DNA from: Acanthochlamys bracteata
Lineage: Eukaryota; Streptophyta; Magnoliopsida; Pandanales; Velloziaceae
DNA: 64,000 bases
Reading direction: 5' to 3'
Assembly (NCBI GenBank): GCA_019914995.1
Contig: CM034135.1
Coordinates: 1,738,501-1,802,500, forward strand
How positions within the stretch are numbered: position 1 is the first letter of the stretch; each line of letters starts with the position of its first letter. Position numbers and translations under genes: made by a program. Below are positions 2,912 through 40,599 of this stretch, one piece after another. The notes under the pieces were generated by a model. It did not search any database and was not told where the DNA came from. It worked only from the letters and a program-made list of their open reading frames with translations.

Positions 2912-5900
2912 TCACGAACCCAGCTTTCTCCTAACCAATCCCTTGAAGAAGTCAAAACTGTCAAGATAAACAAAGGTTCAAAAAGCATTGGTTGAGCGGC
3001 TTATGATAATAATATATTGTCTACTGGAAATTTAAACAGAAACCATAGTACATCTCTATTTCATGAGAAACTGGGACTTTATCTAAGGATGCAACCAAAA
3101 GAATTATTCAAGAGAAAACATTAATTCGAAATGGACATCGGGTATTGGTTTATACCCTCCAAGTCTGCAACTGATAAGAAATAAAAACAAATCGGTTTTA
3201 CAATATTACCTCGAAACCTCAAATTATGTGTCATGAATCCAAAGAAGAAGTTTATCCAAACATTATATGTCGAAGAATCTAAGTACCTGTTTCCATCAGG
3301 GTGCAGCTCATACTTCTTATTATCCTCATCAACAGCTAACAGGTATCCAGAAGTTGTCACACCCTAACATAATGTAGCATATCAACTACCATAAACATAG
3401 AACCTTTTTAATAAAATGTATATATCACAGACACACACACATACACACACAGATGTATAGAGGCACTCCCCCTTATAGGCAATCCCGCACACTCCGCTCA
3501 AAGCCGTCCGATCACTTTGATCAGACAGCTGGTCAATCAAGCGATCGTGGTTGCACAGGGTGAATTGTGACCATCCGACTGCTCGATCGGATGGCAGGAT
3601 TAGGAGAGTGCAGGAGTGCCTATGTCCCCCCCCCCCCCCCCCCTCACTATATTTGTATGTATGTATATGTATGATTATAAATGTTTGTTTACATAGTTCG
3701 TTGCATCTCACCTTAATTGTCACTTCGACGGCTTGCATGAGCTGTCCTTCACCTTTCTCCTCTATGACTACCTTTTGGCCACTGCCATGCAGAACAGGCA
3801 GGATATCAGTAGAGTGTATTTCAGAAATGAACATCAAACAAGAAGCGTTAAGGAACTGATAAGATTGCTTGACTTTATTTTATCTGGAGCGTAAAACAAC
3901 AAAGAGGTCCTCATTCCTCAGAGAAGAGTATGCTGATATAGGGGGCGTTTAGGAGTGCTTATGAAATGGAGGGTATTTTTATCTTTTTTGAAAAACGAGC
4001 TCTATTTTTTTTACTTCCAAAAAAATAATAAAAATATGCAATAAAAAGATCTCACTCCGTAGAATTTTTCTACACTTTCTAAATTTTTAAATAAATTTTT
4101 TATATACTTTAAAAATATGTATTGAAAAACGTAAAATGGAGAAAAGTTGAGAAAAGCTGATAAGCAGCTTTTCAAACGCAGCCCCAAACAGCCCCATAAT
4201 AGTCCAAATAAGAACTAGCCCTGATGAACACAGTCATCAAGGTGCCAAAATAGAGTTTATTAGCACATGTGGACACTGAACTTCTAATTGTGAATGACTC
4301 GTATAAATGCAAAAAATAGAATGGTATTTGATAAACATCTTCATCGTGTAATTTAGTTCTATCCATCAGAAGTCTAAGGGAATAGCATAACATGAACTAC
4401 AGTTGCAGCCGGAAAAGATTGGCAGCTAGTAACTATCTACAAAACCATGGAGTTTATACAGTTCAATGACAGGATACTTCCAAGATAAGAAACTGAGGAA
4501 AACTTACAATGCCAGAAGAACTTTTAAAAGAGCTACCAAGATACTAACTGCTGAAGGGAAGCATTCATTAAAGCAGGGTATACCTGTGAAGCCATGACAT
4601 ATAGTAAAGATCCTCAAGAACCTGAAAACCTGCAGAAAAACAAAGATAACTGTAGATTATTATCTGCGAACAAGTACAGCAGTTCGACTTGTTGAAGAAT
4701 GACATGAGAGAATAGGATGAAATGCAACCACATGTTCCTGATCTTATTGTTACTTTTCATTTATCAAATAGTAAGAGTGAAAGGCTTGCTGCAAAGAGAG
4801 AGCACATAGATAAAACAATGCAAAAACAGCACAGTCATAACCTTGGTCAGAGAAAAGATCAAAAAGCTTCTCAAACTTATTGAAGAAAGTAGCAAGTAAC
4901 TCTTCTCTGCTTATCTTGTGTGAAGAGAAACACTGTTGTCGAAGTACTGCATTTAAGCAGGTCGTTGGCTCCTCATTGTCCACATTCAGCCCAATACCTA
5001 GAAAAATGACCATCATACAGATAACTGCAGCTCAAAGAATCCTAATTGCAAACAGATTGCAAATCATAAGGAAGACCACTTGATAATAATAGTTATTTAC
5101 ATGAGGCAAAAGACCTGTTTACCAGCGCAGACATTAAATGTTTTGGACCTGTAAGTTGAGGTGCAGAGGATGCCTCCAACTTTCAGTCCATTCAGATACA
5201 AATCATTTGGCCATTTTATTCGCACGCCTAATTCTGTTGCTCCCTGAAATTTAAATATGTTTATGAATTCAGGATGGCATCTTGTGAGATTTAGTCTTGA
5301 AGGTAAGGCAAAAACTAAATACCGTTCATCAGTAAGATGATGTTGATCCACATATAAGTCTCACCTTCGACTGACATACTTCCTTTATTGCCTCAGTGAC
5401 TGCAAGAGAAACAACATATTGCAAGAGTGGCAGCTTGCAGCCATCCTCCATCTCTAGTGTGAATGAGAATAGGAGGCAACCTGGGGGCGACTCCCATACG
5501 TTCTTTGATCGACCTTGAAGTAGCATTAATCATGTTATAGAATTTCATAAAAACAATACTTTAAAAGTAAAGCTAATCCTATCAAGACCTCGGCCTTTGG
5601 ACTGAATATCAGCAACACAAACCGTTCCAAGTGGGATCTCGCTGAAATTCCTGAAGAATACATGAACGATCTATATTAGCAATTTATCATGAGCATTTTT
5701 AACTTGTGCCAAGTCCAGGTCCTCAAAATCCAATCTTCACAGTAATCTACCCATCAAAACTGATTGAAATAACCTTTTCATTTAAGAAGCAATGACAGAA
5801 AATTTTCACACTTGAAATGTACGCATTAGCCACCTACAGAAATAGCCTCTCAAAATCAACGCTTTAACATATCCCAGTTTGACAAAACCAACAAAACACA

Positions 5901-6435
5901 AACTTCCACCAGCATCGTTCAATAGGACCAACGCCAAAACTACGAATTGAGCTCTCAAATCCAATCTTTGGCATATCAAATTCACCAAATCCAATGAAAG
6001 CGCAGCCTTTCCAATATTTACCCAAAAACACATTGAAAAAAGAGCACATGAAGAGTGTTCTCACTGGGAGACGAAGTCATGTGTAGATGAGATCTTATGT
6101 GTCCAGACAAGAACTCTCCCGAACTTTCCCGCCGAGAGCTTCTCCATATACTTGTCAGCACCGAATCCTTCCTCTCCACTGGGTCCCACTTCGAGCTCAA
6201 CCCGGCTCTGTACTTCTTCGCCTTCTCCTCTCGCTGTTAGCTTCAAAAAAGGAGCTCTTGAATTCAGTGAGATTGCAAGCTCCTTCTCCTTCTCGGACTT
6301 GCCACAGACAATTAACCGTACGAAACCTTCCGCCATGGCTGACGTGGCAAAGAAAGAAGACGGCGGCTGGAAACGGCGGAGCACGGCTGGTGCGGCGGCA
6401 GCGGCGGTTGGGAAGAAAGAGAACGCGAGTGGCAT
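2912..6435 (-). CDS. HCS1: biotin-protein ligase (holocarboxylase synthetase)
   Basis: Attaches biotin, through biotinyl-AMP, to lysines of carboxylases such as chloroplast acetyl-CoA carboxylase and mitochondrial methylcrotonyl-CoA carboxylase. Nine exons join in phase to 365 residues: 6435-6065, 5650-5589, 5513-5365, 5243-5123, 4997-4842, 4629-4584, 3781-3712, 3363-3287, 2957-2912. Family marks in order: SSTHDFVSQNFSE, the GRGRSKNVWESP adenylate loop, KWPNDLY with the catalytic lysine, GGILCTSTY, GIGLNVDNEEPTTCLN, SGYLLAVDEDN, and the ending DFFKGLVRRKL, very close to Arabidopsis HCS1. The first ATG gives an Ala/Phe/Arg-rich transit peptide; a second ATG at codon 34 could give a cytosolic form, as is known for Arabidopsis HCS1. 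The first 36 codons and the promoter lie in the leftmost unit of a tandem triplication. Intron 6 holds a MITE and intron 7 a run of 18 C (plus strand). Confidence 0.95.
3626..3643. repeat. homopolymer of 18 C
   Basis: Eighteen consecutive C on the plus strand (G in the HCS1 transcript) inside HCS1 intron 7, 69 bases upstream of exon 7 on the plus-strand map (downstream of it in the transcript). CA- and GTAT-type microsatellite runs lie nearby at 3429-3453 and 3655-3672. The exact length may be an assembly estimate. Confidence 0.9.
3941..4185. mobile_element. MITE of the AT-rich GCGTTT family, in HCS1 intron 6
   Basis: About 245 bases. The left end GGGGGCGTTTAGGAGTGCTT and the right end, read in reverse complement (GGGGCTGCGTTTGAAAAGCT), form an imperfect terminal inverted repeat. 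The interior is very AT-rich with blocks such as ataataaaaatatgcaataa and tacactttctaaatttttaa. The reverse complement of this interior matches the copy at 35957-36214 closely, so the two are members of one family in opposite orientation. No coding capacity. I did not find a convincing target duplication. Confidence 0.75.
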
Positions 6436-7595
6436 GTCAAATAGAAATAAAAACGTGGCTAGGCGGCTATTTTGCTGAGCATGTTAGTGGGCCGGCTCTA
6501 TTAGTATATTTTGTAGCTCAAGTATTTTTTTATAGATTTTCTAATCTTATTTCATTTCAAAGGCCTAAACTAGTATCAATATTTCGAACACTTTTAGTTT
6601 TTACATTCTTTTTTTTTTTTTTTCATTTCTAGTTTATTTGACTCATTGGTTCATACATGTTATTTCTTTTGCATTTTTAGGTCTATCAAAATTTCTGTTA
6701 AAGGGCATCTCTGCAAACACCAACAAGTTAGTTAATATTCAAACTTTTTTTTTAAATCACCTCTACACCCATTACTCTATTAGTGTGGCAAAAGGTTCAT
6801 ACTTTATGTAAGAGTGTGTCCTCACTAATTTATATTTAATTTATGTGAGGTACTTGAAATTTAATTATATTGATTATATAACTACAAGATATGATTGTAT
6901 TATGCTTCGTTGTTGTTTTTTACTTTTTTTACAAAGATTTTCGAAAATAAATGGACCATAGCGAGTAGCTTCTTGTTAGTGCCGTTGCATCATATGTACT
7001 TTTATGTGCCATAGAACTATAGAAGCAGTTAGCAACGGGTTGATTGCAACACACTCAAGCACTTCGTAATGTTGTAAAAAAGTCAGCATGTTATGAGGAA
7101 AGTTGCTAAAATATTTTGTAACATTTGTGTAATGAATGCCGTATGACTTGTTGTATAATAAATATTATAATATATTTTAGCTATGTAATATAAAAATAAA
7201 ATAATTATGTTCTTTATATATATTTTTTTAATTTTTCTAAAATTAGTAAATAATTATTACTAGATTAAAAAAATTTTAAAAAATTTATCCTCACTTTCAA
7301 CATATCACTTCCAAATACAAAAAATCACTTCTAACTTTTTAATTACAAAAATAATATAAAAACTCAACTCATTTGCAACAATACTATTTCTATTAACTCA
7401 CTTTCTAAAACTCACTTCTAAGGCCAAAAAATGCACTCATTCTTTAACTCATGATTTGGTGATAACTCAAATGTCTATCATATATCAGCTCAAAATGATA
7501 GCTAAAACTTGGATCATAACAAATGAAACGACTTATGGAAAAGCACTTTTAACTCAAAAAACACCTATGCTAAAGTAATGTTTGGTATCAACATA

Positions 7596-7925
7596 TTACA
7601 TAAAAGCTACATCACCCAGTTTTTCAGAACTAGTTGAAGTGGAACTGGCTTGGGTAACGAAAAGTGGTGAAAAGCGATGGTGTTTGATGAATTTGAGTAG
7701 AACAAATGTGTTTGCGGTTAAAAATAGCAAACTTGCAGACCATAGATGTAAGAAAACAACCTGGCCTCTAAATTCAAGTAAATAACCCCACAAAAGTCAG
7801 TGCAGTTGTGATCCCATCCACAGAAGAATGCATATCGAACATTCCCATTTCAGCTTCATAGAGCTCCAAGGAAGTATCAGAGGAACGAGGCAGAAGAACC
7901 AGACGAAATATTGTGCCGTGATAAC
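7596..7925 (-). pseudogene. copy of PNT1 last exon (unit 1)
   Basis: Reverse complement reads as the PNT1 C-terminus, including WGYLLEF, SASLLFL and [19 protein letters not shown]. The acceptor TTTCAG and first codons (GTTATCACGGCACAA) are kept at 7925. The codon for Trp in the family sequence QLHWLLWG is TGA here (near 7800), and the end is altered, so it cannot supply a working PNT1 C-terminus. There is no upstream PNT1 body in this unit; it is preceded on the transcript side by the HCS1 5' fragment of unit 2. Confidence 0.85.
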
Positions 7926-8086
7926 CTGAAACCATGATAAAGCAAATAACAAAGATCAGTTGTAGGAAAAAAGACGCTACAAAGTGCACAAGAAAACACA
8001 AGTGGTTATATTTCATGCATTGTCTATACGGTACTAGCACATGAGACATTCTACTGAAATGAAATGTCTAGGGCAATAATACTAAT

Positions 8087-8193
8087 CTTCCGCCATGGCT
8101 GACATGGCAAAGAAAGAAGAAGACTGGGCAAGTGAACCCCGCAGCACTACTTGTGGCATCGGCAGTTGGGAAGAAAGAGAACGTGAGTGGCAT
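8087..8193 (-). pseudogene. HCS1 5' fragment (unit 2)
   Basis: Copy of the first part of HCS1 exon 1, from the first ATG (8193) to the breakpoint. It starts MPLTFSFFPTAD, then diverges from the HCS1 transit peptide with frame change and substitutions. At the joint the PNT1 donor is AAGATT rather than AAGGTT, so the GT is lost and splicing at the chimeric junction is not expected. It is the most decayed of the three HCS1 5' copies. Confidence 0.8.
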
Positions 8194-9384
8194 GTCAAAT
8201 AGAAATAAAAAACGAAAGTGGTTGGCGGCTATTTTGCTGAGCATGTTAGTGGGCCGGCCCTATTATGATATTTTGTAGAGCAAGCATTTTTTTATAGACT
8301 TTCTTATGTTGTTTCAAAGGCCTAAACTAGTATCAATGTTTCAAACACATTTAGTTTTTACATTCTTTTTTTTTTTTCATTTCTAGTTTATTTGACTCAT
8401 TGGTTCATACATGTCATTTCTTTTGCATTTTCAGGTCTATCAAGATTTCTATTAAAGGGCATCTCTGCAAACACCAACAAGTTAGTTAACATTCAAACTT
8501 TTTTTTTAAATCACCTCTACACCCATTACTCTATTAGTGTGGCAAAAGGTTCATATTTTGTGTAAGAGTGTGTCCTCACTAATTTATATTTAATTTATGT
8601 GAGGTACTTGAATTTTAATTGTATTGATTATATAACTACAAGATATGATTGTATTATGCTTCGTTGTTGTTTTTTACTTTTTTTACAAAGATTTTCGAAA
8701 ATAAATGGACCATAGCGAGGAGCTTGTTGTTAGTGCCATTGCATCATATGTACTTTTATGTGCCATAGAACTATAGAAGCAGTTAGCAACGGGTTGATTG
8801 CAACACATTCAAGCACTTCGCAATGTTGTAAGAAAGTCAGCATGTTGTGTAGAAAGTTGCTAAGATATTTCGTAACATTTGTGTAATGAATGCCGTGTGA
8901 CTTGTTGTATATAAAAAATATTATAATATATTTTAGCTATGTAATATAAAAATAAAATAATTATGTTCTTTATATTTTTTTTTTAATTTTTCTAAAATTA
9001 GTAAATAATTGTTACTAGATTCAAAAAAATTTTAAAAAAATTATCCTCACTTTCAACATATCACTTCCAAATACAAAAGAACACAAAAAATCACTTCTAA
9101 CTTACTTTCAATTACAAAAATAATATAAAAACTCAACACATTTGCAACACTACTATTTCTATTAACTCACTTTCTAAAAACTCACTTCTAAGACCAAAAA
9201 AATACACTCATTCTTTAACTCGCAGTTCCAGTGATAACTCAAATGTCTATCATATATCAGCTCAAAATGATAGCTAAAACTTGGATCATAACAAATGAAA
9301 CGACTTATGGAAAAGCACTTTTAACTCAGAAAACACCCTTGCCAAAGTAATGTTTGGTATCAACATCTTACATGAAAGCTTACA

Positions 9385-9699
9385 TCAGTTCAGTTTCCTG
9401 TAACTAGTTGAAGTGGAACTGGCTTGGATAAAAAAAAGTGGTGAAAAGCGATAGTGTTTGATGAATTTGAATAGAACAAATGTGTTTGCGGCTAAGAATA
9501 GCAAACTTGCAGACCATAGATGTAAGAAGACAACCTAGCCTTTAAATTCAAGTAAATAACCCCACAAAAGCCAGTGCAGTTGTGATCCCATCCACAGAAA
9601 AATGCATATCGAACATTCCCATTTCAGCTTCATAGAGCTCCAAAGAAGTATCAGAGGAACGAGGCAGAAGAACCAGACGAAGTATTGTGCCGTGATAAT
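9385..9699 (-). pseudogene. copy of PNT1 last exon (unit 2)
   Basis: Reads [35 protein letters not shown] and [11 protein letters not shown] in the PNT1 frame, then an in-frame TAG just after LEFKG. The acceptor (TTTCAG before ATTATCACGG) is intact at 9702-9700. In a second frame the same DNA is open from the acceptor to a TGA at 9548. That is the frame which a splice from the HCS1 fragment at 9862-9970 would enter. Confidence 0.85.
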
Positions 9700-9861
9700 C
9701 TGAAACCATGATAAAGCAAATAACAAAAATCAGTTGTAGGAAAAAAAACGCTACAAAGTGCACAAGAAAACACAATGTGGTTATATTTCATGCATTGTCT
9801 ATACGGTACTAGCACATGAGGCATTCTATTGAAATGAAATGTCTAGGGCAATAATACTAAC

Positions 9862-9970
9862 CTTCCGCCATGGCTGACATGGCAAAGAAAGAAGACGGCG
9901 GCTGGAACCGGCGGAGCACGGCTGGTGCGGCGGCAGCGGCGATTGGGAAGAAAGAGAATGCGAGTGGCAT
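9862..9970 (-). pseudogene. HCS1 5' fragment with intact transit peptide and donor (unit 3)
   Basis: Copy of the first 36 codons of HCS1 exon 1, with both start codons (codons 1 and 34) and two apparent substitutions (T10I, T31M). The fragment ends GCGGAAG followed by GTTAGT, the PNT1 intron-3 donor, which the duplication fused to the HCS1 exon. If transcribed from the duplicated HCS1 promoter, this exon can splice to the PNT1 exon copy at 9699. The phase changes there (HCS1 part ends after the first base of a codon, PNT1 exon starts at phase 0), so the predicted product is about 86 residues: HCS1 transit peptide plus a non-PNT1 tail starting [11 protein letters not shown]. Expression is unknown. 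Confidence 0.7.
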
Positions 9971-11160
9971 GTCAAATAGAAATCAAAGACGAAAATGGTT
10001 GCCGGCTATTTTGGTGAGCATGTTATTTGATTGGGCCGGCTCTATTAGGATATTTTGTAGAGCAAGCATTCTCTTATAGGATTTCTTATGTTGTTTCAAA
10101 GGCCTAAACTAGTATCAATGTTTCAAACACTTTTAGTTTTTACATTCTTTTTTTTTTTTTTTTCATTTCTAGTTTATTTGACTCATTGGTTCATACATGT
10201 CATTTATTTTGCATTTTCAGGTCTATCAAAATTTCTGTTAAAGGGCATCTCTACAAACACCAACAAGTTAGTTAACATTCAAACTTTTTTTTAAAATCAC
10301 CTCTACACACATTACTCTATTAGTGTGGCAAAAGGTTCATATTTTGTGTAAGAGTGTGTCCTCACTAATTTATATTTAATTTATGTGAGGTACTTGAATT
10401 TTAATTGTATTGATTATATAACTACAAGATATGATTGTATTATGCTTCGTTGTTGTTTTTTACTTTTTTTACAAAGATTTTCGAAAATAAATGGACCATA
10501 GCGAGGAGCTTGTTGTTAGTGCCATTGCATCATATGTACTTTTATATGCCATAGAACTATAGAAGCAGTTAGCAACGGGTTGATTGCAACACATTCAAGC
10601 ACTTCGTAATGTTGTAGAAAAGTCAACATGTTATGAGGAAAGTTGCTAAGATATTTTGTAACATTTGTGTAATGAATGCCGTATGACTTATTGTATAATA
10701 AATATTATAATATATTTTAGCTATGTAATATAAAAATAAAATAATTATGTTCTTTATATATATATTTTTAATTTTTCTAAAATTAGTAAATAATTATTAC
10801 TAGATTAAAAAAAATTTTAAAAAAATTTATCCTCACTTTCAACATATCACTTCCAAATACAAAAAATCACTTCTAACTTACTTTCAATTACAAAAATAAT
10901 ATAAAAACTCAACTCATTTGCAACAATACTATTTCTATTAACTCACTTTCTAAAAACTCACTTCTAAGGCCAAAAAAATGCACTCATTCTTTAACTCGCA
11001 GTTTCAGTGATAACTCAAATGTCTATCATATATCAGCTCAAAATGATAGCTAAAACTTGGATCATAACAAATGAAACGACTTATGGAAAAGCACTTTTAA
11101 CTCAAAAAACACCTATGCTAAAGTAATGTTTGGTATCAACATATTACATAAAAGCTTACA

Positions 11161-13468
11161 TCAGTCCAGTTTTCTGTAACTAGTTGAAGTGGAACTGGCT
11201 TGGGTAACGAAAAGTGGTGAAAAGCGATGGTGTTTGATGAATTTGAGTAGAACAAATGTGTTTGCGGCTAAGAATAGCAAACTTGCAGACCATAGATATA
11301 AAAAGACAACCTGGCCTTTAAATTCAAGTAAATAACCCCACAAAAGCCAATGCAGTTGTGATCCTATCCACAGAAGAATGCATATCGAACCTTCCCATTT
11401 CAGCTTCATAGAGCTCCAAGGAAGTATCAGAGGAACGAGGCAGAAGAACCAGACGAAGTATTGTGCCGTGATAACCTGAAACCATGATAAAGCAAATAAC
11501 AAAGATCAGCTGTAGGAAAAAAGACACTACAAAGTGCACAAGAAAACACAAAGTGGTTATATTTCATGCATTGTCTATACGGTACTAGCACATGAGGCAT
11601 TCTACTGAAATGAAATGTCTAGGGCAATAATACTAACCTTGTTGAATGCAACAAAAGTGACTGTCTGCAAGAAAAGGCAAAATGGTAGATCTTTTGCAAA
11701 TTGCAAGATGAGAACAAGCTGCACCATTAACTGAGGTAGAAAAGATATAAGCTTTTCGGAAGCTGAAAAGCCCTGTTGGTGATGAAGATAAATGTGGTAG
11801 AAGTATATGGAAAAATTGTGGCGTGGATCAGTGCGTGTGAGATGATATAGTAATGCCTCATTCAGAAACTCCCATCCATAGAGGTAGAAGAAGAGCAAAG
11901 TCCAAAAGAAGAAGACAGCCCCAGAAATTAGTGCAAACAGTATGCTTTCTTTTGTTAGAATGCTTCTGAAGAGGACCCATGGGGTGATATATCTCCAACA
12001 TAAAGCTGGTACACCCTGACTGCTTGATTTTGGTTTCCATTGGTTAAGAGTAGATCCCTTGTCCTCATTACCCTTCCATTGTGCAAGGACTATAACAAAA
12101 GCCATCGAGTATATAATTGGATAGATACGGAAATGGACAACAAGTCCATACCAACATGCTGCCTGGATCACCTTACCTGTCATACGCAACCACAATATGC
12201 TGATGAAGATGATCAAACAAATGAGAAACTCCCATAATTAACTCATAGATACTAAGTTCTTGCTTTAGAGGTGCATGAGTATTTGTTCAAAGGACATACT
12301 GAAAATGGGCTGAACTTACACCATTCATGATGCAGATGATAATCCACAAAATCATAGCACAAACAAGAGGTTCACAATTTCCTCTCGTTCCGATGGTGAA
12401 TGTGAAGGGATTAAAAAGCCAAGATGCCACAGAAATAAGACGGAGATTCTCAGGGACACCTCGCAGCTTCAGTATGGAGTCCACGAACAAACCAACCAAC
12501 AAATCTGAGCAGAAGGAGATACAGAATACCAGTGTGGGCGTTAAAATAAAACAAAATTTTGTCATGCAATGGTGCATAGTGAAACTTTGGTTACTTTGAC
12601 ATTTAATTGTCATGATCTAATAGTGCAGCAAATATTACATACAACTATTCTGCAGCCAATTGAATGTTAAGAGATCCTACCAATTAAATCAGAATAAACA
12701 GTCAACACACAGCCTAGCTACTTGCTTCTCCTATTTCAACAATCAATCAATGTTAGCTATCACCTCATCAGCTAAATAAAGGCTACAGACAACCAAATAC
12801 AATATGCTGAGCTCAATCCTGAATCCAAAGACAATTTTCATGCAGATTCTTCTCGTATAACTCACAGCTCAAACCTCAACATAACAAGGAACGAATCAAC
12901 TTCACCCTCTAACCAGCATTACAATAGATAACCGACGGGAAGACAGGAATTCAACATTAATAAAAAACTCAAGCCTCTGTCTTTTGCAACCATCGAATGT
13001 GCAAACTCAATTTTTACTCACGATAAAACCAATCTCGAGCTAACAAAAGTTTTCATCTTATCTCAATATGTTAGAAAGAAGTATAAGCCAGCACAAACCT
13101 GAGACACTTGAACGAAGGCCAAGACCGAAAATCCAATTTTATCACAAACGACTAAAACTTTCAGCACAGCCACAATGCTAAACAAACGAATTGTTACCTG
13201 CAGCTGAGAAGACGAGTTTTCCCCACGACCGGTGGAGAACAGAATTCGGGATCAACAAGAACGAAAGCAGAGGAGAGTAACGATACGTGGATCGATCGAA
13301 CGGCGATCTACCGGCAGCGGCAAAAGCGGCGGCGTCAGAGAAAACAAGATAGTCCACGTCAGTATACCTCACCTCCATGTTCGCGTCCTGCCATTCTCCA
13401 TACAGCATCAGCAATACCCTCAACCCAGCGGAGAACAGCATCAAACTACTGAGATTTACTCTACCCAT
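11161..13468 (-). CDS. PNT1: GPI mannosyltransferase 1 (PIG-M type)
   Basis: Adds the first alpha-1,4-linked mannose to GlcN-acyl-phosphatidylinositol in the ER lumen during GPI-anchor synthesis; Arabidopsis PEANUT1 is the named plant gene. Four exons join in phase to 435 residues: 13468-13198, 12504-12322, 12176-11638, 11475-11161. Marks: an N-terminal membrane segment, then the lumenal catalytic DVD (DxD) within [14 protein letters not shown] at residues 35-47, [52 protein letters not shown] and several more membrane helices, ending [11 protein letters not shown]. Length fits the family (about 420-450). The last exon and intron 3 were copied twice more to the left. The exon-3 donor (11638/11637) is the breakpoint of that triplication. 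The intact C-terminus is in the rightmost unit. Confidence 0.93.
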
Positions 13469-14556
13469 CCCCGAGAGCCGTGTTTCAGTTTCCTTCTTTC
13501 TTTCTTCCGTTGATTGGTGCGGAGGTTTACGAGATCGAGCAATTGTAGATTTGCCGATGTGAACGAAGAGAGAGAGTAGTCGATATTGTTAAAGCAAAAT
13601 TCATCAGGGTTGAATTTGCAAAGTTTTAATTGGGCTTATATTGGCAGTATAATAGACCAACGTCTGAAGCCCAACGTTTTGGACTGATTTAAAATTTTAG
13701 GCCCAGTAAAATAGACCAATACACTTTTTTTGGCATCATATCTAAATGATTCTCTCCATATAGATAACAAAGTGGTGCTAGAGATTAGAATCAACATCCT
13801 AACTTGTCACTAGGCATGTGATCTATGACATATTGTGTCTTCAAATACAAGTAGTTCAACAACCATATTTCAAATATTCGTAATTAATTTTTATAAAAAT
13901 AAAAACAAAAAAAAGTTTTTTAAAAAATAAAATTTAATATTAAATTTTAATAATTTTAAAAATAAATTAAAAAATAAAAATTATATTGAAAAATAATAAA
14001 TAATAAAGTTGAAATTATGTATATAAAAATAAAGTTTTAAATTTTTTGTGCAAATAAAATATGTGAATATTTTAGAATTTTAAATCTGATAAAAAAAATA
14101 AAATTAAAAATATTTTAAACACGCCCATAAATATTTCTCAATGCTAATCACTTGTTACGTAAGAAACAGGTAACAAAAAACTTCCAATCGTATGGAATTT
14201 TTGTCCATTATGTTGAGGATATTGAAATTGAGAATTGATTCAAGGTTGTCATTTTCTTTCACATTTTCAAGGATATGATGGAGATAATATAATGTAAATT
14301 TTGGGACGTTTAAAAAATATTTATAGAATAAAAGTTTATAATATAAAAAATATTTTAAATATCTTTTAAAAATAAGTTTAGTTTTGTTATATATATAATA
14401 TTTAATTTTTATATTTAATTTTTAAAAAATTACAAACTAAAATAAAATAATTATAAAAATATAATATACTTCTAAAAAAGACTTCTTAAGCTTTCTAGGA
14501 AAAAGATAGCACTCTAAAGCCTATTAAAAATAGTCTATATATATGCATGAACCATA

Positions 14557-16391: not shown

Positions 16392-19154
16392 ATAGTTAAA
16401 GTATTCCCCAAAAGTTATTAGTACAACGTACGTACATGTTGAACAGTTTTATGCCCTTTCATAGAAATTTTTAGAAAAGAGTTTCAATATCTGAGAACAT
16501 TTCATTGCCATTTCAAATAGCAACACTAAGATTTGAATAGACTTTTAATGTACTCATTTGTTCCTTAAAAAAAATGTTACTTAGGTGAAAATGGTGAAGA
16601 ATCTTTTCTTTTATTTTTCTAAATTACAAGAGTTAATAGTTCGCTTAATTACAATAACTCACAGAAGAGGTGGAGCTATGCAAATTTCTGATAATTGATT
16701 GCTTCTTTGTTTCCTCCACCGCCATGAATGGGGATGCAGAGGGAGGAGAGAGAAGAGAGAAGGACGGTGAATGGCAGTGAGTGGTGTCGGAGAGTCAGCT
16801 AGCAGAACGGACCACTTCCACGTGTGACCTCGTCCTCCACGCCAATCTTCGTCAGGTCATTTCACATCACCTCTTTTGTCAAATCATCAACTTTTTCCTT
16901 TCTCAATTTTATTCTTGCGCTTGCTATTCAATTAAAAAACCATAACAAAGAAAATTACCAGAGTAAAGAAAAGGTTTTCTGCTCCGCTGCAAAGACACGT
17001 ACGAGCGCACGGATCTCACCAGGCCAGACTACCACCATTGTCTGTTTTCTCTTCTCTTCACTTTGTTTTCCTACAGAAAACAATTGATGCGACTGATTGT
17101 CAGAAAAAAAATTTCTTCTCCTGACAAATATAATATAACAATTTGATCTGGGTCTTGTCCTGTTTTGCTAGCTTTGTTAAATGATTGTGAATCAAAGCGT
17201 TATAAACAACAAATAAGAACAGATCAAGAAAAATGGTTGTTTGTTTAATTCTTGTTATGTCATGTCACGTTGTCATGAACTGTCGTGCGTGTTTACATTA
17301 CATTGTCACTTGCTAGATTTTACTTCTGTTCTTCTTTCCGGAAACATAAAACATTTTCATTTTGGTGAATTTTGCAGGAGGCCAATTGACGCAACAAAGC
17401 AGTGCAAATATTGCGTTGAAGAAACTATAGACTGTTTTCATTCATTTTATTCATCTTCTTGTTGAAGAAATTAACAAGGAAAAGAGAGAGAATGCAATGT
17501 GGTCCTGTCCTAAAGAAGTAACAAACTAATTAATGAAGGAGACATTTTCTGGTGGATCTTTTGAAAAGGCATACAGCAATATTGCATTACATTACACATA
17601 CATACACAAATGGCTATATAGATTTTGATGATCAGGGCAGGAGAATTTTCATTTGGTATGCTATTTGTGGTCCTTCATGGCTGCATTCCATTTAATTTAG
17701 CATGTGCTCTTATATACACATAAAATTTTCAACAACTACAACGAGTTCTCTTCAAACTTTGCTAGCTTCCACCTTCTTTCTTTCTTCAAGGCTTTTAGTA
17801 GCTAGCTAGCTAAAATACTACTTCCTGATATTGTCAGATATCAGTGTTGCATTTCACATTATTAATTAATCTTAAACTCCTTTGAAACGTTTGCTTTTTA
17901 TGCTCACTTATGTTATGTATAGGAAAACATATAGAAATTCAATATCTGTGAATTCTGAACCGAGCCCAAAATCAGGCCATCAAGCATGAAGACATGAAAT
18001 AGCCAATTCACGGAGTTCAAAGTTTCTACTGATCAATAAATAGATCGTGCAAGAGTTGTCCTATTGTCATTTACAAGAGAATGACTAGTCAAGTCCACAC
18101 ACACACATAGCCAATTCACTCAATTCATTATCAGTACAACATATGTATGCTGTGTTGACATACATCTCTGTGCATGGTCCCTTTTGGAATGTTTTGGTGC
18201 TGGAATTTTTTTTCCTTCTCCAACTTGTTGCATGTTTTGGGTAATCCACTGCATTTTGAAAAGTCTCATCTTTATACAAGTTTATTGCAATTTTTTCTCT
18301 GGATAAACTTGATGAGTTTGAAACTTTGACTTAGCCAGAGAAGCAAATCATATTAAAGATTAATTATTTATAAATAGCTAGACAGATTATTTATTTATAG
18401 ATCAGCTAGGGCTCTAACATGGATGACTAAATATAGTAAACGTTTCTCTTATTAAACAAATATACACAATCTTTTACCCATACTAGACCCATGCAGCCTA
18501 TCTAATTAAACAAAATACTGGACATATTCCAGCAATACATTCGCAAGGAATCAAAGAAAGAAATTCAAGATGAAATTGGATCGCTTTGAAGAGATCGAGA
18601 TGTCCTTGGCATAATGCAATAGAAGAGGGAAATGGCATTCACCACAAACACTTGCAGAACAAAAGATTTAAGGCTAGATATATAAACAACTGTAGTGTAC
18701 TGAAGCAGTGTACTTAAAAGGGTAGATAAACAACTGTAGCTCCTTACATGCTCTCAGAACTAACAAAGAAAGAAGAAGACAGAGAGATCAACGCATATGC
18801 CAAAGCCTAGCTTCACTAATGCATCGTGACTGCAGCTCTGCTGTATCTACCAGCATTCTCTGATACATCTCAGTATCACTGCAGTTGCAAACCCAATTCC
18901 CTTAGATATTGCTCCTCATATTCAAACAAAAGCACAAAAAAGCTTTCCATGCAAGATGCATCTGTAACTATAGTTAAACTACAATCATATATAGAAAAGC
19001 AAGTATTACATATATGTTAATTACCTCAAAACACCAAGCACTGATAATTATAGAGAAAATTAAACATAGCAAGACCAGTAGCACCACCACCACCTACATT
19101 CCCTAGTCAACTACTACTAACTACTTAACTAAATATACCAAAAGACTACTAAGA

Positions 19155-19973
19155 TCAATGGAGCACAGGAAGAGGTATAAGACCTCCGGCAGCACGGGCA
19201 TCGGTCACACTAATGACACCATCATCATTATCTGCAACCTCACTTGACGCTAAAGCCATCATCAAACCATGGTGATGGTGCATTACTTGTTGCTGCCCAA
19301 AGTGATCATGAGCACCTGCAGAGCTATTCTGATGCATGAATGCCGGAAACATAACAGCAGCATGGTGATCCATCCACTGTGGCGGAATACAAGCTGCAGA
19401 AATCGACGACTGCTGTAACACTGTTCCTGCAGGTTGCAGCTGCTGCTGCTGATGAGTTTGAGATTGCTGTTGTTGCTGCTGCTGCTGCTGTTGGTGAGGT
19501 GGACGTTTTCGTTTCTTCTTCTCATAAGCAATACCTCTTGCTTTCGCCTGGGTATCACGGACTTCACGGAGATAAAGCCTTACAGCACGCGCACCGAACG
19601 GGTTCGCATCAGGGTGCCCGCCGTTTTCTTCAAAAGCAGCACGGAGTCGGCCGACGAGTGCATCAAGAGATCCCCAGGCTTGTTTTAACGGGCAAGGGCA
19701 GGGTGCGGGCGGCTGAGGGACACCAAAGAACGGGCACCCAACAGTGTGAACTTTCGTTTTACCGAACTGGTCTAAGTATCGGAGAAACTCGAGCACGTGA
19801 GCGCCGCTGCAACGGGAGAGAGCAAGTGGTGGTCGGTGGTTGCGGAGGTACTGGCCGAACGTGTTCCAATCTCGCCGTTTCTGCGATTCGTAACGGCTTG
19901 GTCGAGCTTCCGTAGTGTTAACTCCACCACCGCCGCCGCCAGAGTTCCCGGAGCTGTCGGAGTTCGTTGCCAT
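19155..19973 (-). CDS. LSH: ALOG-domain (LSH) transcriptional regulator
   Basis: Intronless 272-residue protein. Residues about 25-150 are a full ALOG domain, the DNA-binding fold derived from XerC/D-like recombinases: [80 protein letters not shown]. The zinc-ribbon insert is present (His76, Cys80, Cys92, Cys94). A basic nuclear signal KKKRKRP follows at 152-158, then a polyglutamine region and a His/Met-rich tail ending GLIPLPVLH. The N-terminus has a Gly run, usual in the family. Members act in the nucleus in light response and at organ boundaries and meristems (LSH3/LSH4, tomato TMF, rice G1). Which of the ten Arabidopsis LSH genes is closest I cannot say; the long tail is longer than LSH1-4. 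The ATG at 19973 precedes the conserved domain directly. Confidence 0.93.
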
Positions 19974-20107
19974 GTGGTGCTGGTCAGAGAACTACGGTAC
20001 TAAATTCTCTCCCGCCGCTAGAATACTACCGTGAATTGTTTGTTTTTGGAACTGATTGAAAGAAGAGAAAAAGATGGTCTACAGTAGAAATTTCAAAACA
20101 AGAACAG

Positions 20108-33000: not shown

Positions 33001-35456
33001 TGATTTATTTTTTGACTCTGCTCAAAAGCTACTAGTATCCAAAATTTCTAGTCTGGTGCACCTCTAAACATCTGCGTATTGTATTCTGGCAAAATGTTTC
33101 AAATATTCACTTATGATTTGTTTACCTATGCATTTGGAATGCAAGCTATCATGCTATTTAAACACAGTGGAGGTACAAATCTTGTTTTGGTATATTGTTT
33201 TGATGCAACTTGTTCTTATTTCATACAGATCTAATTAGCACATACAAAACAACACAAAGAATAAGTCGCATAAATACGTTATGGGTATGCTTGTCCTGGC
33301 ATTCTCATGATTGTCTTTTCTTGACATAATGCTATATACATTCAGGCTCTACTGCTGCAGACTGGGTACATGTGCCAGACTTTCCAAACTGGGATGATCG
33401 GCAAGAATTGAGTGCTGATAGTAGTCAGGAAGGCAAAAAGTGTTGGTCACATCCTCATCCTTCAGATCTTCTTCTTGAGGCCAAACCCTTGTACAGAACC
33501 TCCACATATCCCCAACAGCAGCAGTCACTGCCACTGCCGCTACATCAAAATGCTCCCAGTGAGCCAGTCCCTATTCCTAATCCAACATTCACTTCATACC
33601 CTCTACCTGCTGCACAGTTGCCTGTTGCATATGACCATCCACATCATTTGCAGACCTCATCTCCGAGAAGTGGGTTACGCATTCCTTTCCCTGCCCCTAA
33701 TCTCTCTCCTTTTGGTGGTCCCCAGCATCAAGGACCACCACATGGCTCACGGCACATTGCGAACATGTCGCAGTATGGCTCTGCAGGCGCTCCCATCAAT
33801 GAACAGCAGCATAATAATCGGCTGAACCAACCTGGTGTATATCCATGGGAGCACCCGAGTGTCTTGCCTAACTTATATCAACAGCAGTTGCCCCATCTCA
33901 ATGGCCTAATGTCTCCGCATGTGTTACCACCTCAACAGCATAGCCAACATCAAATCCAGCCATCACCATCACATATTACTCATATGCAGTCACAGCTATT
34001 CAGTTCCCATGCTTCCCCACCTCAAATGGTGAATAAGTTTGCAATGATGTTTGGTATGGCTGATTCCAGTGATCAGCATTTGAAACCAATGCCTAGGGGC
34101 GGACAAAGCTTGCTAGCTCCCTATCATGGTTTTGATACTGGGTCTCAGATGTATGAAAACAGTTGGCCACAATTCCGATCAAAGTATATGACGCCCGAAG
34201 AGATTGAAAACATCATGAGGATGCAGCATATTGCAACTCACAGCAGTGACCCCTATGTTAATGATTACTATCATCAAGCTTGTCTTGCAAAAAAATCTGC
34301 AGGTTCCAGGGTCAAGCATCATTTTTGTCCATCTTCACTCAAAGATACGACTTCTGGTACCCGTCCTAACAGTGAGCCACATGCATTCCTTCAAGTTGAT
34401 GCCCTTGGGAGGCTTCCCTTCTCTTCAATCCGAAGGCCTCGCCCTCTTCTTGAAGTGGAGCCACCTACTGCATCTACTGATAACAGCATTGGCCAGAAAT
34501 CTTCTGAGAAACCTCTTGAACAAGAACCAATGTTGGCTGCAAGAATCACAATTGAGGATGGACTTTGTGTTCTTCTCGATGTTGATGACATTGATCGTGT
34601 GATGCAGTTCAAGCAACCACAAGATGATGGTTCTCATTTGAAACAAAGACGACAAGTCCTCTTAGAAGGCCTTGCCACATCTTTACAGTTAGTTGATCCA
34701 CTGGGCCCTGGTAAAGCTGGTGAGTCAGTGGCTCTAGCCCACGAGGATGATCTTGTATTTCTTCGCCTGATCTCACTGCCCAAGGGCCAGAAGCTTATAT
34801 CACGTTACCTGCAGCTGCTTTATCCTAAAAGCGAGCCGACTCGTATAGTCTGTATGGCTATCTTCCGCCACTTGCGGTTCTTATTTGGTGGTCTGCCCTC
34901 AGATCCTCATGCAGCTCAAACAACAATGAACCTTGCCAAGACTGTTTCCTCTTGTGTAGAGAGCATGGATCTGAGCTCTCTCAGTGCCTGTCTTGCTGCT
35001 GTAGCTTGCTCATCAGAGCAACCACCTCTACGGCCCCTTCGAAGCTCTGCAGGTGATGGGGCCTCGACTATTTTAAAGTCTGTTCTTGAGAGAGCAACTG
35101 AGCTTCTGACAAACAGTCACACAGCAATTAACTACAGTATGTCTGCGCGAACTCTGTGGCAGGCATCTTTTGATGCATTCTTTAATCTCCTGACCAAGTA
35201 CTGTTTGAGCAAGTATGATCGAGTCATGCAGTCATTGTTCTTACAAGCACCCAACATGGCTATTATTGGAGCAGAGGCTGCGAGTGCAATAAGTAGGGAA
35301 ATGCCTGTGGAACTGTTACGTGCCAGCATTCCTCACACAGACAAACGTCAGCGCAAGCAGCTAGTTGACTTTAGTCAGAGGTTGATACTAGTTACGGGTA
35401 ATAATGCCAATACAGGCACCAATGGACCAATTACTTCTGAATCTGTACCTGGTTAA
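30089..35456 (+). CDS. PAT1: PAT1 decapping activator (protein PAT1 homolog)
   Basis: Cytoplasmic scaffold of P-bodies that links deadenylated mRNA to LSM1-7 and the decapping enzyme; in Arabidopsis PAT1 also affects immunity and leaf development. Exons 2-5 are firm: 31042-31193, 31615-31671, 32898-32967, 33346-35456. They read [20 protein letters not shown], the acidic [31 protein letters not shown], a long Pro/Gln/His-rich region (about residues 150-380), the [17 protein letters not shown] segment, and the C-terminal helical Pat1 domain up to [13 protein letters not shown]. Exon 1 is my weakest call: an ATG at 30089 read to a donor at 30110 (GACG then GTAGTG) gives MVGVEGD and the right phase, for 803 residues in all, near the family length of about 780-800. 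A second GT a few bases on fits too. Introns are large at the 5' end (about 0.9 and 1.2 kb). Confidence 0.9.
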
Positions 35457-39381: not shown

Positions 39382-40599
39382 CGCTACATACGTCAAACCA
39401 ATTTTATTTATTATCTTCGATAAGAACTACATTTTTTTCAAAAAATATTAACTACATCAAAATAAATATAGAAATAAGGAACCTTGTAAATAAAATTATT
39501 TCTTTTTTTTCGAATGAGCCTTGACTTCCTCTCTTTCATGCGAAGAACATGGAAGAGTCAGATCTCTCGATCGCTAACTACATGTAATAGTTTTGCTTCT
39601 CGTCTCCCTCCATTACGCCTCCATTACCTTCTCTCTTTTTTTTCTTTCTTTCGATCAAGGCGCATTTTTATTTTTCTCTTTTCCTTCTTTTCTTGCTTTG
39701 CTGATCAGTAGCACCGGAGTCGAGAACTTTTTCTCTATTTTTTGAAGTCGTAATCTATACTGGGTAGTCAGCTTTTTGAGCGTTTCGGTTGATAAATCTG
39801 GGATTGGTTTTTGTTGCTATTATTCAGGTACACAAGAACAAGAACTAGTAAAGTTTGGATTGTTTTTTCTTCTTCTGATGATACGGAAATCAGTTTCTTG
39901 TTCGCTTCGTCCTCGTTGGTATCGGACGATGAATAATTTTGGATCGACTTTTGCGTTTATGGAGATTTCACTGCGCGATTCAGCTACAGTTCAGTTTTAT
40001 ATTGGGTTTAACTTGGTTAATATGTCAATTAAATACTTTCTATATTTGCGCTTAAATGGAACGAATTAATAGAGGCTTGTGGAGGTTTGATTTCTTTGTT
40101 TTCGTGTCCTCGATTCGTGTATTGAAACCTTTATCTTGTCTTAATCGCTGATCCTCTGGTTCCCCTCTTGTTTCCTTCAAATGTTCTATTCGATCATGGA
40201 AATTTGAAACCTTTGTCTTGTCTTAGTCACTGATCCTCTGTTTTCTCTCTTGTTTCCTTGAAAATTTCTATTTGGTACCGTAATTTGTTCTGTAAGTCCT
40301 CAATTTGGTGTCTATGACAAGATTGAAGGTTGATTTCTACTAAATTTGACGTCTTTTGCCAAGGTTTTACTCTTGAAAAGAGATTTACTTTAGATTATCC
40401 TGCTGTTTTTTAGATTTTTCTCATTTGTTTGAAAATAGATTGCTGGGTATGTAGTATTCAAAAGATTTATTCTTTTGGTTGACTTGGTACAGGAATACTT
40501 GAATCTTGTTGGTGCCCCTAGGTTCTCCATGAACTAGTACGGAATTTGTCGGTATTTGAAGGTAGTTCACCTTTACTTGCGCAGTTGGCTGATCATCAC

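Follow-up and report, generated by a model that had tools for sequence, protein, structure and literature searches.

The window, a stretch of 64,000 nucleotides from contig CM034135.1 of Acanthochlamys bracteata (positions 1,738,501 to 1,802,500), carries on its minus strand two neighboring genes arranged head to tail, with PNT1 upstream and HCS1 downstream, and a tandem array that joins pieces of the two. One junction in this array carries a chimera with a predicted spliced open reading frame (ORF) of 86 codons, here called the HCS1-PNT1 chimera, which an earlier note on this DNA had described as a possible newborn gene. Positions refer to the window, and the array, its parts, and the two genes are all on the minus strand. 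The gene names are the labels of the earlier note, and the Pfam domain matches were consistent with both. Two of the 4 PNT1 pieces matched the PIG-M mannosyltransferase domain (11602-12237 with an E-value of 7.7e-42, and the last exon with an E-value of 1.3e-16), and no Pfam match was obtained when the remaining 2 pieces were scanned. A biotin/lipoate ligase domain was identified in 2 of the 5 HCS1 pieces (E-values of 6.3e-11 and 5.6e-9); no Pfam match was found in another 2, and an unrelated match below the threshold in the last. In comparisons with the PDB sequences, PNT1 matched GPI mannosyltransferase 1 (3 sequences) and HCS1 matched biotin ligases (5 sequences, E-values of 0.0008 to 0.0026). 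The first coding exon of HCS1 (6061-6435) is open from the ATG at 6435, and the ligase domain was located by domain search at 5097-5529. The intact last exon of PNT1 (11161-11475) has an open frame, the upstream exon identified by the PIG-M domain search is at 11638-12237, and the gene probably starts near 13470.

A segment of 1.76 to 1.78 kb was present in 3 tandem copies, which we refer to as unit A (6327-8086; 1,760 bp), unit B (8087-9861; 1,775 bp), and unit C (9862-11638; 1,777 bp), with the boundaries set by the common motif CTTCCGCCATGG. All 3 units include the intergenic region. In unit A, it is combined with the native HCS1 5' end and a decayed copy of the PNT1 last exon and last intron. 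Unit B has a decayed HCS1 5' fragment and the PNT1 last exon and intron copy from which the chimera tail derives, and unit C has the HCS1 5' fragment from which the chimera leader derives, together with the native last exon and intron of PNT1. The 5' coding end of HCS1 covers 109 nt in units A and C and 107 nt in unit B. Beyond the array, unit A is the only one to continue into HCS1 and unit C the only one to continue into PNT1, and both parents are open at these ends (the exon 1 frame of HCS1 from unit A, and the last exon of PNT1 in unit C).

The pairwise Kimura 2-parameter distances were 0.069 for units A and B, 0.044 for A and C, and 0.057 for B and C, with 15, 13, and 8 indel events, respectively. 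At a plant substitution rate of 7e-9 per site per year, which is itself a guess, these distances correspond to about 3 to 5 million years. Changes were assigned to lineages by 2-against-1 comparisons among the 3 units over 1,749 ungapped columns, without an outgroup; gapped columns were left out of the counts, and 3 columns with 3 different bases were credited to no lineage. Per 314 sites of the PNT1 exon there were 11 specific changes in unit A, 11 in unit B, and 5 in the native copy in unit C, and both inner copies contained a stop in the PNT1 frame (after SQLH in unit A and after FKG in unit B). More changes and stops in these 2 copies are expected once they were freed of constraint. Arrays with short units are a known risk in genome assembly, and the triplication could be an artifact of haplotypes or reads misjoined in tandem. 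We consider this extremely improbable, since the units differ by 4% to 7% plus 8 to 15 indel events per pair, and since the PNT1-frame stops occur in the 2 exon copies without upstream PNT1 sequence, whereas the copy joined to PNT1 is open, which is unexpected for misjoins.

The chimera takes its leader from unit C and its tail from unit B. The coding part of exon 1 (9862-9970) is the HCS1 leader of 36 codons plus 1 nt; it is followed by a GT-AG intron of 162 nt (9700-9861), which is a copy of the PNT1 last intron and near-identical to it, and by the coding part of exon 2 (9548-9699), derived from the PNT1 last exon. The leader ends in phase 1, in contrast to the native PNT1 intron, which has phase 0; the PNT1 exon is consequently read in a shifted frame, here for 50 residues to a TGA at 9550-9548. 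Joining 9862 to 9699 gives an ORF of exactly 86 codons, in agreement with the frame of about 86 residues, with a change of phase and an end at 9548, that had been proposed in the earlier note. The leader frame was likewise found to be intact, from the ATG at 9970 to 9862, and the fragment ends in GAAG followed by GTTAGT, which places the donor at 9862/9861 as proposed. It had also been stated that both start codons were kept, and the ATGs are indeed present, but the leader in unit C has 3 in-frame ATGs rather than 2, with the third resulting from an ACG/ATG difference to unit A. Among other positions, this leader departs from HCS1 at 9942 and 9959. It is basic (pI 9.35) and rich in alanine; of HCS1 it retains just 36 residues, with no part of the ligase. 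The acceptor exon begins with an A, where the other 2 copies have G. The chimera product had no match in the PDB up to an E-value of 1, and a Pfam match with an E-value of 0.32 was below the cut-off and was treated as a chance match.

The acceptor at 9700 (CAG, 9702-9700) is the counterpart of the PNT1 acceptor, as claimed, yet other AGs, among them those at 9751 and 9799, lie closer to the donor. A total of 7 AGs were scored, corresponding to introns of 63 to 327 nt; introns shorter than 60 nt were skipped. The AG ending at 9751 had a pyrimidine fraction of 0.78, compared to 0.72 at 9700, and is in frame, giving 103 codons. The 5 candidates other than these 2 gave 37 to 79 codons, with the AG at 9799 obtaining a poorer score and giving 39 amino acids. 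Counterparts of the AGs at 9751 and 9799 are both present in native PNT1. It was also noted that the candidate at 9752-9751 would add 17 mostly hydrophobic residues to the chimera product.

At the duplication junction (9859-9864), HCS1 exon 1 and the last-intron donor of PNT1 share a 6-bp microhomology, AAGGTT. The sequences GCGGAAGGTTTCG in HCS1 and CAACAAGGTTAGT in PNT1 have this word in common, exactly 6 bp, which corresponds to HCS1 codons 36 to 38, and at the junction the HCS1 coding sequence abuts the PNT1 donor AAG/GTTAGT. The breakpoints were located inside 2 neighboring genes: one cuts exon 1 of HCS1, and the break in PNT1 coincides with the donor of its last intron. A microhomology of at least 6 bp was obtained in only 0.16% of 200,000 random pairings of the 2 regions, so the junction was likely made by microhomology-mediated joining. 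The regions 6061-6435 and 11161-12237 have 69 words of 6 bp or more in common, of which AAGGTT alone spans the PNT1 donor. The position of the junction on a splice donor is striking, but it was spotted post hoc. A bolder view would be that the microhomology, being identical to the core of a splice donor, directed the duplication to a junction that works as a donor, and that the resulting frameshift microprotein, ready for splicing and addressed to an organelle, is expressed and becoming a gene; we judge this combination to be very improbable.

The 2 junctions in the array are identical except for a GT-to-AT change in unit B, and the simplest history for such near-identical junctions would be a single event followed by unequal exchange. 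We infer that a duplication with the 2 breakpoints described above, probably formed via the shared AAGGTT, positioned an HCS1 promoter and leader upstream of an additional copy of the last intron and exon of PNT1, while both parents kept open frames at the array ends. The third unit, and hence the second chimera, would probably have arisen later by unequal exchange. If the promoter copy in unit C is active, the transcript could be spliced by means of the PNT1 intron signals to give the 86-codon frame, and the predicted product would carry a leader of the targeting type, followed by 50 residues of tail in the shifted frame.

The second chimera of the array combines the leader in unit B (8087-8193) with the tail in unit A. 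Its first-ATG frame is broken and does not reach the junction in phase, and its donor has changed from GT to AT at 8086-8085. The large majority of the specific changes in the unit B leader, 23 of 24, were clustered in 8121-8164, together with a 2-nt gap, which is far above the rest of the unit and suggestive of a single replacement or conversion event. A blastn search of the window with the 70-bp patch gave no convincing template for this segment; apart from the patch, it recovered the ends of units A and C as well as some short matches. The best of these short matches, 17 bp and exact (18764-18780; E-value of 2e-4), was rejected as a template, as it covers only the start of the patch. We noted that the leaders contain 13 CpG sites in unit A (6327-6435), 11 in unit C (9862-9970), and only 4 in unit B (8087-8193). 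The array has given rise to 2 chimeras, of which one is dead and the other is structurally intact.

In all 3 copies of the PNT1 exon, including intact PNT1, the tail frame runs for 50 codons until it meets the same stop. When the PNT1 exon was recoded with synonymous codons in 20,000 draws, the shifted frame was at least as open in 62% of the draws with uniform codon usage and in 46% with local usage. The open tail is thus in line with chance expectation, and no openness beyond chance was found by synonymous recoding of this exon. The other shifted phase of the exon has a stop after 16 codons.

The lineage-specific changes in the chimera exons amounted to 2 of 107 sites in the leader (unit C) and 3 of 152 in the tail (unit B). 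The total of 5 of 259 did not differ from the 45 of 2,334 in the intergenic regions of units B and C (odds ratio 1.0, p 1.0), although the power of a comparison with 5 changes is very low. According to our own reading, 3 of the 5 changes are nonsynonymous (T to I, S to F, and G to D) and 2 are silent. In simulations of neutral evolution with 1.5% to 5% change per lineage, the ATG, the splice sites, and a frame of at least 86 codons were kept in 64% of the runs at the lowest rate and in 28% at the highest. These simulations comprised 20,000 runs per rate, with 64% transitions and an indel rate of one-tenth of the substitution rate, and ignore CpG effects and promoter loss. Since survival of the structure is this common under neutrality, the intact frame does not indicate selection, and given the small number of changes it does not argue strongly against selection either.

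Taken together, the chimera can with good confidence be regarded as a splice-competent but unselected by-product of a partial tandem duplication. Its product is most likely not under selection and decaying neutrally, as the sister chimera has already done. Some observations weigh against this interpretation. Despite a divergence of 4% to 7% among the units, the frame of the leader, both splice sites, and the shifted frame of the tail have all remained intact, and the leader has acquired only 2 specific changes per 107 sites in unit C, compared to 24 in unit B, which could be read as constraint. Moreover, 5 changes in 3 units compared without an outgroup leave very little power to detect selection. 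Constraint on the leader was rejected as an explanation of the contrast, as the rate in the unit C leader (1.9%) is not below that of its own intergenic region (17 of 1,167 sites, 1.5%), and as all but one of the unit B changes belong to the single cluster.

The chimera is preceded by a copy of the PNT1-HCS1 intergenic region (9971-11160), which the earlier note had presented as a ready-made promoter. This was too strong a description: the TATA-like element located about 100 nt upstream of the leader ATG is TATAAAA in units A and B and TATAAGA in unit C. A GGCCCA element upstream of the leader was kept in all 3 units. The upstream ORF nearest to the leader ATG has 7 codons in unit A and 12 codons in unit C, where it forms the end of an ORF of 28 codons. 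In unit B, the upstream ORF (8193-8250) has no stop and enters the leader in frame, whereas those in units A and C end before the leader. In Arabidopsis, a small upstream ORF is said, going by the title of a 2008 study by Puyaubert and colleagues, to regulate the initiation and targeting of HCS1. The chimera leader likewise derives from HCS1, and short upstream ORFs are found here too, but the chimera has only the first 36 codons and no ligase. The Arabidopsis HCS1 gene produces isoforms with and without an organelle targeting signal via alternative splicing, according to PMC3820309.

The nested upstream ORFs of 28 and 12 codons immediately 5' of the unit C leader ATG would also fit a locus that is transcribed but acts only as RNA or through a leader-only peptide, or whose transcript is degraded. 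If the intron is retained, the frame ends after 37 codons, as GGT TAG follows directly after the leader. The donor and the intron are, however, near copies of those in native PNT1, so that splicing is to be expected if the locus is transcribed, and we consider this alternative unlikely.

Partial tandem duplication is a known route to chimeric genes, and the locus has the structural features of a chimeric gene structure formed in this manner. In Drosophila yakuba, tandem duplications created 76 chimeric genes, of which 24 had raised expression over at least half of the exonic sequence of the duplicated segment, as stated in PMC5460883. Like the duplications described there, the one studied here has breakpoints in 2 neighboring genes and shuffles their 5' and 3' ends. 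It differs in that it is located in a plant, contains 3 units, and has the junction on a splice donor and a shifted tail frame. Resemblance was also seen to the type I young fusion genes in Oryza, described in PMC9199173, in that both are plant fusion structures with both parents still detectable, although the second part of the present chimera is out of the parental frame. No HCS1-PNT1 chimera was found in the open-licence literature by titles and beginnings of abstracts, which is weak evidence of absence.

That partial tandem duplications in Drosophila often yield expressed chimeras, and that the leader frame, donor, acceptor, and 86-codon ORF are intact, would agree with a functional young gene whose frame is kept by selection and whose novel 50-residue peptide is directed to plastids or mitochondria by the HCS1 leader. 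We consider this very unlikely, given exons that change at the intergenic rate (as far as 5 changes can tell), a frame that is inherited and expected by chance and that commonly survives under neutrality, an altered TATA-like element with longer nearest upstream ORFs, a broken sister, and the lack of a PDB match up to an E-value of 1 or of any Pfam match other than the one below the threshold. Of the new gene by exon shuffling proposed in the earlier note, the partial tandem duplication structure, the HCS1 5' region, the GT-AG intron, and the 86-codon frame thus hold, but not the status as a gene, which is unproven and unlikely, and the term newborn fits poorly with units that differ by 4% to 7%. 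Finding an intact 86-codon spliced ORF at the junction of a duplication is by itself no evidence of a gene. The locus cleanly documents a natural case in which promoter, leader, intron, and exon can be assembled into one unit by a partial tandem duplication in a single step, next to a matched sister that is dead. If expressed, the pair would allow the birth and loss of a chimeric gene to be traced at one locus.

Elsewhere in the window, a pentatricopeptide-repeat protein was encoded by one long open frame on the plus strand (1215-2441; PPR_2, E-value of 3.8e-44), and a gene for an ALOG-domain protein was located on the minus strand (19158-19991; E-value of 2.8e-64). An open frame of 708 codons on the plus strand (33330-35453) had a sub-threshold match to PAT1 (E-value of 5.5e-5, 22.2 bits versus a cut-off of 25). 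It was also noted that a tandem repeat with an 82-bp unit is present at 40122-40272 in 1.8 copies with an 86% match.
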